Source: Bacteroidales bacterium (GTDB taxonomy: Bacteria > Bacteroidota > Bacteroidia > Bacteroidales > UBA10428). From it: a stretch of DNA of 64,000 nt. The stretch is from NCBI GenBank assembly GCA_016931575.1, contig JAFGEO010000068.1, forward strand, positions 1-64,000, in the 5' to 3' direction. The notes under the pieces were generated by a model, which saw only the letters and a program-made list of their open reading frames with translations, did no database searches and was not told the DNA's origin. Positions within the stretch are counted from its first letter, which is position 1. Each line of letters opens with the position of its first letter. This document shows, piece after piece, positions 21,343 to 23,179 of this stretch. The translations under genes and the position numbers were made by a program.

Positions 21343-21380
21343 GAAGAACCGGCCTCGCGGCCGGTTTTTCAATTTTTTAT
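21343..21380 (+). terminator. Rho-independent terminator of the SusCD operon
   Basis: A perfect 8-bp GC-rich stem, AACCGGCC/GGCCGGTT with loop TCGC (21347-21366), is followed by T-rich sequence (TTTTTCAATTTTTT). It lies 56 bases after the stop of the TIG lipoprotein gene and should end the GH31-SusC-SusD-SGBP transcript. Confidence 0.85.
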
Positions 21381-21409
21381 GGTTTAGAAATTGTGTTGTT
21401 CAGTCTTGT

Positions 21410-21467
21410 GTCGGCTAGTAACTATTGATCCGATGACTCAAAGTCATCGGATCAATAGTTACCCGAC
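21410..21467. repeat. Long perfect palindrome (21-bp arms, 3-nt loop)
   Basis: Arms at 21418-21438 and 21442-21462 are exact reverse complements with loop CAA. The stem extends by GTCGG/CCGAC across a three-base bulge (CTA). It has no T-tract, lies between convergent genes and is distinct from the terminator 45 bases upstream. It may be a REP-like element, a bidirectional transcript-stabilising hairpin or a protein-binding site. Confidence 0.8.
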
Positions 21468-21492
21468 TTGCTGGTTTCTGAACAATGGAAAA

Positions 21493-21696
21493 CTATTTCT
21501 TCCCCACCACCTTCACCGTCTTATTATTGATCATCTCCTGGAGCTGTTCTAAAAGGGCCTGCTCCTGGGAATCAATGTGTCCGTCTTCTGAAGCGATATG
21601 CAGGATCTGATCAAACTCATCGCGGGTCAGGACGTGGTCTTCTATGGCTTTGTTTATCATCTCACGGAGTTCGTTTGCGCTGCTGCTTGCTGTCAT
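21493..21696 (-). CDS. Small helical protein with EF-hand/TerB-like loop (67 aa)
   Basis: A 67-residue soluble protein, rich in charged residues and predicted helical. The centre reads TRDEFDQILHIASEDGHIDS, which resembles an EF-hand or TerB-like acidic loop between two helices. No signal peptide or membrane segment is present. The C-terminus is basic (VKVVGKK). It lies downstream of a structured intergenic element on the same strand. The function is unknown. Confidence 0.6.
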   Translation of the reverse strand: MTASSSANELREMINKAIEDHVLTRDEFDQILHIASEDGHIDSQEQALLEQLQEMINNKTVKVVGKK

Positions 21697-21759
21697 GGTT
21701 TGTAAATTTAAATTTAGGTTTAAAGATAGTGAATTGTGTAAAAAGGTCCCGCAGGTTTT

Positions 21760-21896
21760 CCAATTAGTACTGCCAACCGATGCGGTGCAGGTGATACCAT
21801 CACCTGAATGAAGGATCGTGTGTGCAGCCTTGGAATCATTCGTTCCCGTTTACCGGGGGTTACCTCCCTGGCTGTAAGCAGGGCGCCACTAATTGG
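21760..21896. other. Structured non-coding element of about 137 nt, class unknown
   Basis: Between the MFS gene and the small protein gene, CCAATTAGT (21760-21768) pairs with ACTAATTGG (21888-21896) to close a domain. Inside are a perfect 8-bp hairpin CAGGTGAT/ATCACCTG with loop ACC (21788-21806), GGAA/TTCC (21832-21846), CCCG/CGGG (21845-21857) and CCCTG/CAGGG (21866-21883); the second and third compete. No open reading frame of quality covers it. On the minus strand it would lie in the 5' leader of the 67-residue gene and ends near a T-run. It did not match the motifs of SAM, TPP or cobalamin riboswitches, 5S rRNA or SRP RNA that I looked for. It could be a small RNA, a leader or a MITE-like remnant. 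Confidence 0.35.
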
Positions 21897-21923
21897 CTCA
21901 TGGGGTACTTTGCTTTTATTCCC

Positions 21924-23114
21924 CTAGCTTTCTTGCTTATCTATCCGAACAAACGCACTGACAATTCCCATCATGATCAGGGCAATTATTCCTGCTCCAT
22001 AGAAAGCATAGCTTACACCTCCCAACGCAAAGGCCAGGCCAATCATAAGGGGGCCGATGGTTTGTCCGATCCGTAGTACCATGCTGTTGATCGACATGAA
22101 GGCTGCCCGTTGCTTGAGGGGTGCAAAGCCAACCAGGAGGGTCTGGATGGTAGGTATAAACATCCCGTGTCCCAGTCCGAAGAGCATGGCCGGAGGGACC
22201 AGCATCAGGTAGGAGTCTGCAAATGAGAAGAATAGCATGGCAAGGAAATATAAGAGGGTTCCTGCTATCAGAATATTCCTTCCCTTCAGGTAGCGGTTGA
22301 TTTTACCGATGAATGCCGAAGTCAGCGCTGTCGTACCTGAGGTAAGGGACATCATGATCCCGATCATCAGGGATCCGCTGGCCAGGCGCCTTTCCATCAG
22401 GATGGGCAGGTAGGTCAGGTAGGCCCCATAGATCAGGAAAAAGACCAGGATATTCACAATAAAGAGAGCCCAAACGGTGCGCTGGTTTATGTTTTTCCAG
22501 GTATTTCTGAGGTACGATTTCAGATCCTGGCCCTTCTCGGGTTCAGGATTTTTTAGTTTTAAGGCAATTAGGATACCGAAGGGAACAGCCAGGATGGGAA
22601 GGACGAAGGGGAAATACCATCCTGCAACTGCCAGAGCACCACCTATAGCGGGATAGCTGGCCGTTCCAATACTTAGTACGCTGGCATTATAGCCCATGGC
22701 CTTGATACGCTGCTGTCCTGAATACAGGTCGCCGATCAGTGTGACATTAAGCGATCCCAGGGATGTGGCCCCTATGCCCTGAAAAACACGGGCGATTAGA
22801 AGCAGGTGAAAATCCCGGATAAATACACAGGTAAATCCGGCAAGGCCGAAAAGCATCAGGGAAGGAATAAGGATGTTTTTCCGCCCAACGCGATCTGCCA
22901 AAATTCCCATGATTGGTGTAAGAAATACTCCGGGCAGGGTAAAGGCAGCGATCAGAAGGCCCACCTCAGCTTCCTTCAGGTGGAAGTATTTCATGATCTC
23001 GGGAAAGGCGGGGGCCAGGCTCGCTACACCCATCACACCGAAAAGGGTGATAATAAATATTAGCTGCAGGTTGGTATCACGGATCAGTTTGGGATGTTTG
23101 CCGGTATTAGTCAT
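21924..23114 (-). CDS. MFS transporter, drug-efflux-like
   Basis: A 396-residue protein with twelve predicted membrane helices and the MFS loop motif GILADRVGRKNIL after helix 2, plus the helix-5 type motif (GTASYPAIGGAL). It resembles the MFS drug:H+ antiporter group (Bcr/arabinose-efflux-like). It lies in the segment separating the two halves of the PUL and is bounded on both sides by palindromic repeats. Whether it serves the PUL or is an unrelated insertion is not clear. Confidence 0.8.
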   Translation of the reverse strand: MTNTGKHPKLIRDTNLQLIFIITLFGVMGVASLAPAFPEIMKYFHLKEAEVGLLIAAFTLPGVFLTPIMGILADRVGRKNILIPSLMLFGLAGFTCVFIRDFHLLLIARVFQGIGATSLGSLNVTLIGDLYSGQQRIKAMGYNASVLSIGTASYPAIGGALAVAGWYFPFVLPILAVPFGILIALKLKNPEPEKGQDLKSYLRNTWKNINQRTVWALFIVNILVFFLIYGAYLTYLPILMERRLASGSLMIGIMMSLTSGTTALTSAFIGKINRYLKGRNILIAGTLLYFLAMLFFSFADSYLMLVPPAMLFGLGHGMFIPTIQTLLVGFAPLKQRAAFMSINSMVLRIGQTIGPLMIGLAFALGGVSYAFYGAGIIALIMMGIVSAFVRIDKQES

Positions 23115-23148: not shown

Positions 23149-23179
23149 GTCATTGCGAGCGCCAGCGAAGCAATCCGTC
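23149..23179. repeat. GTCATTGCGAG/GAAGCAATC-type dispersed palindromic repeat
   Basis: GGTCATTGCGAGCG followed by CCAGCGAAGCAATCC matches the common pattern GTCATTGCGAG...GAAGCAATC, a short dispersed palindromic repeat seen in many unrelated bacterial genomes. The arms ATTGC/GCAAT are complementary. Only one copy is present in this window. Confidence 0.55.

Follow-up and report, generated by a model that had tools for sequence, protein, structure and literature searches.

A decayed copy of a dispersed four-hairpin repeat between a transporter gene and a small-protein gene of a Bacteroidales bacterium

The locus and its predicted fold

The window analyzed here is a stretch of 64 kb from a Bacteroidales genome whose gene content includes an SGBP_B xyloglucan-binding gene, and the segment under study (21760-21896) lies in it between the genes for an MFS transporter and a 67-residue protein (Table 1). 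The preliminary description had taken this segment for a stretch without a gene, which is correct, as it holds no convincing ORF and the 84-aa ORF that overlaps from 21822 on the plus strand is unsupported. Searches with Rfam, which cover riboswitches as well as other families, gave no match in the whole window at gathering cut-offs and none in 21700-21960 at E<=5.

Table 1. Positions of the genes, the repeat unit, and the stems at the locus
Feature	Positions	Strand	Basis or remark
67-residue gene (neighbor)	21493..21696	-	ORF starts at 21696; conserved in the family; element unmatched at its orthologues
Repeat unit with four hairpins, one copy	21778..21900	+	model R2, blastn
Closing stem of the preliminary description	21760..21896 (21760-21768 / 21888-21896)	+	present, not conserved, probably chance
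8-bp hairpin of the preliminary description, CAGGTGAT-ACC-ATCACCTG	21788..21806	+	within the H1 loop
H1, foot GGTGCA (21784-21789) / TGCAGC (21823-21828)	21784..21828	+	one G-G mismatch; covaries in relatives
H2, degraded, GGAATC-ATTC-GTTCCC	21832..21847	+	alignment
H3, CCGGGGGTTACCTCCCTGG	21853..21871	+	degraded from CCCAGGGC-nnn-GCCCTGGG; in relatives part of Acido-Lenti-1
H4, degraded (GCCAC..TTGGC) from CACCCTTTCAGGGTG	21885..21897	+	alignment, R2
MFS transporter gene (PF07690; neighbor)	21924..23114	-	ORF ends at 21924

Both strands of 21760-21896 fold better than most shuffled sequences, with -52.4 kcal/mol for the plus strand (z -2.75, 2 of 200 shuffles equal or better) and -47.7 kcal/mol for the minus strand (z -2.28, 4 of 200). 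In a scan of 1066 segments on both strands with 40 shuffles each, in which the segment of the element had been positioned on the feature beforehand, it obtained z -4.0 on the plus strand, a value reached by 0.6% of the segments, and z -2.5 on the minus strand (3.2%). An equal-length segment begun at the conserved unit (21779) yielded only z -1.0, which 24% of the scanned segments reach, and the fold signal is thus largely owed to the closing stem.

The hairpins that the preliminary description had seen are real, but the fold that it proposed is mostly not the conserved one. Its closing stem is exact, with CCAATTAGT (21760-21768) being perfectly complementary to ACTAATTGG (21888-21896), and so is its perfect 8-bp hairpin of CAGGTGAT (21788-21795) and ATCACCTG (21799-21806). 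However, the closing stem taken alone is unremarkable, because perfect 9-bp inverted-repeat pairs with a span of up to 137 occur 83 times in the window (10 of them spanning 120-137), as compared to 26-46 times in ten simulations. The left arm of this stem is located beyond the alignable unit and has no significant similarity to the sequences that flank nine other copies on the outside (best value 50 of 1000 shuffles), and its right arm lies inside the decayed H4. As judged from these alignments, the closing stem is a non-conserved flank joined to a damaged H4 and stands outside the conserved structure. At the position of the 8-bp hairpin, the other copies in the same genome have weaker or differently placed hairpins.

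Other palindromes occur nearby in the window. The strongest fold of the whole window (z -9.6) is a near-perfect palindrome at 21361-21497, between a surface glycan-binding gene and the 67-residue gene, with the core CCGATGACT-CA-AAGTCATCGG at 21430-21450. The pattern of this core recurs elsewhere in the genome (C90, L034 547-567), and it may therefore be another dispersed palindrome. On the other side, a TTGCGAGCG..AGCGAAGCAATC stretch at 23153-23175 is a single match where 0.01 would be expected, and a strong palindrome of CTCAGGGCTTCA units (segment from 23161, z -8.2) lies between the MFS gene and a 772-aa ORF.

A four-hairpin unit in several copies

Sequence comparison identifies the segment as one copy, by now decayed, of a dispersed four-hairpin repeat of about 120 bp. 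The covariance model R2, a leave-one-out model that was built from eight other units of the genome and excluded the window copy to avoid circularity, detected this copy with 47.5 bits (E 2.6e-9) as the only good match in the 64 kb, the next match in the window having an E value of 9.3. At the DNA level, blastn against the genome found one clear second site, C85:98489-98552, with 80% identity to 21781-21844 (E 3.6e-9). With searches that started from this site and its relatives, eight further units were found altogether at six other places in the genome, namely two each on contigs C85 and C66, which form clear tail-to-tail inverted dimers, and one each on C29, C143, C144, and C136. The nine units match model R1 at E<=1.6e-18, every one of them being a training row of that model, and seven weaker R1 matches at E<=0.01 include C27 and a second half at C29 (E 2.2e-5). 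A weaker second half at C143 has an E value of 0.0125, and a unit on C168 (31.9 bits with R1) was omitted from the structure alignments, as it is truncated and divergent. In an alignment of 123 columns, the nine units extend over about 120 bases and have no large gaps. An intergenic position is established for the window copy and for C85, which lies between ORFs of 578 and 525 aa. An empty site or a target duplication could not be demonstrated at the window copy, as the MFS and 67-residue genes are not adjacent in relatives. The copies on C136 and C144 (L040 1300-1389 and L068 338-411) are about 90 and 440 bp away from tRNA-Ser and tRNA-Phe genes, respectively.

The general form of H1 has the foot GGTGCA/TGCACC and a loop of about 33 bases, and the best form of H2 among the other copies of the genome is GGTAAC-ATTC-GTTACC. 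In comparison, the window copy is damaged, with a G-G mismatch in H1, an imperfect H3, and lesions in H2 and H4. Over the 25 pairs of the nine units, 90.8% of the cells are paired, and changes on both sides occur in 9 pairs and 16 cells, none of which values was reached in 500 shuffles; when the partners are slid by 1-3 columns, pairing falls to 29-47%. Without the window copy, 92.2% of the cells are paired (0 of 500 shuffles), with both-side changes in 7 pairs (3 of 500) and 11 cells (0 of 500). The copies of this genome have no both-side change in H1, for which the support comes from the relatives. Over 29 units, H1 is paired in 96.6% of the cells and has 21 both-side cells (0 of 500 shuffles each), and the number of pairs with a both-side change, which is 4, was reached in 48 of 500 shuffles. 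H1 alone was counted in this set, as H3 is displaced by one base in those rows of its MAFFT alignment that have a four-base loop. Further pair types did not exceed the shuffles in the nine units (139 of 500), without the window copy (480 of 500), or for H1 in the 29 units (302 of 500).

The stems are therefore conserved with compensatory changes. The preliminary description had held that a lack of homologues with compensatory changes, together with the lack of a transcript, would speak against the element, and the search for such homologues was positive for the structure H1-H4. Template-switch repair can also create covariation in palindromic DNA, so that the covariation is in itself no proof of selection or of an RNA. 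Two properties of REP/BIME elements are found here, several dispersed copies in one genome and palindromic hairpins that are kept by compensatory changes.

Beyond this genome, R1 at E<=0.01 matched in 89 of the 295 genomes of the order, a count that includes the genome itself and a share of genomes that match by H3-H4 alone. The inspected matches are of two kinds, being either full-length or consisting of H3-H4 with a different hairpin where H1 would be. Full-length units from nine other genomes were inspected (G046, G281, G196, G204, G153, G085, G067, G068, and G258), of which G046 has at least 12 copies that align across the unit. The dimer of G281 (C231) is head-to-head and thus of the opposite order to those of C85 and C66. 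Of 24 units, among them the window copy, 21 have an H1 stem of 6-10 bp without gaps; the exceptions are two units of G204 (L135) and the window copy. All 21 have a loop of 31-35 bases in a test that allowed 25-50 bases, with units picked by a model that partly favors a near-constant length. The sequence of this stem varies freely, for instance GCGATGCA/TGCATCGC, CGGCACA/TGTGCCG, GCGCTGCG/CGCAGCGC, and GCGTCGCA/TGCGACGC. As a side aspect, the G046 units (L169-L179) are embedded in mosaics with other intergenic repeat modules, such as CCCTCGACTACGCTCGGGATGACA.

The full-length units of the relatives were reached by the covariance model only. A DNA-level search in eight genomes of the same genus gave no match, and a search with the window element gave a match in only one of 59 relatives (G049), which comprised 28 bases at the 5' end of the element in apparently coding DNA. 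A search with the C66 element gave matches in 7 of 117 relatives, all at query positions 277-329, which correspond to the H3-H4 stretch. A scan of 118 genomes, this one included, for the arm pattern found it at five sites of this genome and at one chance-like site in G089. In wider scans of genome contigs, a first pattern had no site and a second pattern had eight, by eye all in repeat-free coding DNA of unrelated phyla, and the pattern scan of viral contigs found none.

H3-H4, Acido-Lenti-1, and TnpA_Y1 genes

H3 and H4 resemble Acido-Lenti-1 (RF01687), as both consist of two GC-rich hairpins about 12 bases apart, but the RF01687 model, with its 46 positions, has no counterpart of H1 or H2. 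The H3-H4 part of five related full-length units passes the cut-off of this family, which is 37 bits (5 of 10 matches, at 10 loci). Copies of the genome itself score 30.1 (C143), 28.9 (C29), and 24.7 bits (C66), and the window copy does not match RF01687 even at an E value of 5. In the loci searched, no Rfam family spans the whole four-hairpin unit. Rfam files the H3-H4 type as an sRNA, and Acido-Lenti-1 has been described in Acidobacteria and Lentisphaerae as a probable RNA (PMC2864571). A paper from 2026 suggests it as a possible regulator of protease genes in Tannerella (PMC13298647).

Repeats of the H3-H4 type cluster at TnpA_Y1 genes in relatives. This was analyzed in 25 genomes that were picked by hand among those with 6-12 R1 matches listed (G110 and G223 are comparable and lie outside this set), 23 of which have PF01797 (Y1_Tnp) genes at E<=1e-8. 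The scan covered 71 loci with flanks of up to 1.5 kb, corresponding to 72 of the 84 PF01797 matches, since one locus (L230) holds two genes and 12 low-ranking matches were excluded. At these loci, 67 of 76 R1 matches (E<=0.01) lie within 500 bp of the gene and none beyond 1 kb, whereby matches that share one locus are not independent. In successive 250-bp bins from the gene, the density of R1 matches is 1.24, 0.69, 0.25, 0.03, 0, and 0 per kb. A match within 500 bp is present at 26 of the 71 loci and absent at 45. RF01687 itself matches at 11 of the loci at E<=0.01, in 6 of them at or above the curated cut-off.

Among the 76 matches, 14 consist of H3-H4 only, as they start at model position 71 or later. 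The other 62 were examined for H1, and 10 of them have some stem of at least 6 bp there, none of which is of the H1 type by eye. The H1-bearing form was thus not found beside a TnpA_Y1 gene at any of the 71 loci, so that we infer its mobilization from the shared H3-H4 alone. In the genome of the window, the two better TnpA_Y1 genes (C51 and C121) have no R1 match nearby. When the units were compared by blastn with the four PF01797 loci of this genome, only short stretches at C51 matched, the best of 27 bases and more than 1 kb away from the gene.

Apparent duplications are seen at two loci. L230 (G234:C1:1392276-1396467) has its two TnpA_Y1 genes 847 bp apart and three H3-H4 matches with the same spacing, as if the gene had been duplicated in tandem together with its repeat. 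At L167 (G217:C214, 693-1563), the start of the TnpA_Y1 gene together with the upstream repeat is present twice, about 300 bp apart, with the upstream copy being shortened.

Several known systems can be compared with this arrangement. At some loci (L234, L219, and L248), H3-H4 matches flank a lone tnpA gene on both sides, similar to the ends of IS200/IS605 elements and perhaps to their PATE-like non-autonomous derivatives; the difference from both is that H1-bearing units were not found beside a tnpA gene. The likeness to REP/BIME/REPIN elements with their RAYT (TnpA-REP) enzymes lies in dispersed palindromes that are single or in inverted pairs and in H3-H4 beside TnpA_Y1 genes, whereas the unit here has about 120 bp and four hairpins. 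The enzymes also differ from RAYTs, as the scanned loci mostly hold proteins with the motif Y-x3-Q-x2-HH (its strict form at 52 of 71 loci). This motif is the signature of subclass 1.2 from Cyanobacteria and Bacteroidetes, which is listed without REP and generally without IS200-type terminal structures, and REP elements carry a guide tetranucleotide (GTAG or GTGG) at the foot of the hairpin, where cleavage takes place (PMC6006769). Dispersed REP-like palindromes and the H3-H4 part, as Acido-Lenti-1, are already known. In the open-licence literature searched, which included papers on REP and RAYT systems and on Bacteroidetes, we found no link of Acido-Lenti-1 to a transposase.

Interpretation and alternatives

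Three options had been raised for the segment in the preliminary description: a small RNA, a leader controlling the 67-residue gene, and a remnant of a mobile element. The last one is supported in the refined form of a decayed dispersed palindromic repeat. We consider it likely that this repeat is REP/BIME-like and that its H3-H4 part is the substrate of an IS200/RAYT-like HuH enzyme. Repeat DNA of a mobile type is likelier than a gene switch, because the database family of H3-H4 can adjoin genes of DNA-cutting enzymes. By analogy with REP/BIME elements, we infer that the units are mobilized and would be spread by a HuH endonuclease that recognizes the single-stranded hairpins of H3-H4 during replication. 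As in the REP/RAYT system, the enzyme would recognize, cut, and rejoin the hairpins once these are exposed on the lagging strand, and the stand-alone form would carry H1 and H2 as additional modules. The copy in the window would be an old, decaying insertion between two unrelated genes that has probably lost the property of a HuH substrate. Its present effect, if any, would be incidental and REP-like, that of a hairpin at the 3' end of the transcript of the MFS gene.

The element could be considered to act in cis on the 67-residue gene, as a leader or an attenuator, since it lies upstream of this gene with respect to the gene's own strand, and its minus strand folds better than most shuffles. 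However, the gene has orthologues in 16 of 23 genomes of the family, its own included, and R1 had no match even at E<=1 at the 15 orthologue loci and six MFS-homologue loci of other genomes, while blastn of the element against the regions upstream of the orthologues gave only an 11-base match. As there is no match at the loci of either gene in relatives, the element is not a conserved leader. In addition, other copies adjoin other genes, such as the two ORFs at C85 and the tRNA genes near C136 and C144, and a possible promoter -7 box (TATCTTTA, 21721-21728; seen by eye) lies between the element and the gene. The proposed control of the 67-residue gene is thus not supported, and we regard it as very improbable. 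The pairing of the two neighboring genes is itself not conserved in the five relatives in which both were found (G001, G002, G005, G008, and G010), as they are on different contigs there.

The small RNA option is weakened by the copy number, the inverted dimers, and the link of H3-H4 to TnpA_Y1. In its broader form, the full H1-H4 unit would be a transcribed multi-copy family of non-coding RNA genes that act in trans, with the window copy being a pseudogene. In agreement with this, four stems carry compensatory changes, the H1 loop keeps 31-35 bases despite sequence change wherever its stem is gapless (21 units), and the H3-H4 type is an Rfam sRNA that its authors marked as probably an RNA (PMC2864571). 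Nevertheless, many copies per genome in some relatives, as in G046 with its dozen or more, the inverted dimers, and the position of H3-H4 beside TnpA_Y1 genes make an RNA family unlikely. Even less probable is an origin from a classical element of the DDE type that has no relation to HuH enzymes and would have left a MITE or another inverted-repeat remnant. The long inverted dimers at C85 and C66 do resemble a palindromic MITE, but single units and the opposite, head-to-head order of the dimer (G281:C231) also exist, and H3-H4 matches adjoin PF01797 genes.

If the REP-like repeat reading is combined with the Acido-Lenti-1 assignment, Acido-Lenti-1 may be the cognate DNA hairpin of the TnpA_Y1 enzymes of the subclass 1.2 type found here, and the H1-H4 unit may be a composite that is built on it, falls outside the Rfam families, and has a freely changing stem with a near-fixed loop. 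We put forward this joint proposal only tentatively, as a possibility somewhat short of an even chance. Subclass 1.2 enzymes are described without such repeats (PMC6006769).

Taken by itself, the copy in the window is an ordinary repeat in decay, and the family behind it matters more. This family offers a testable function, that of a substrate of HuH enzymes, for an Rfam RNA that continues to be viewed as a possible regulator, and it offers a substrate for an enzyme subclass that is reported without one (PMC6006769).
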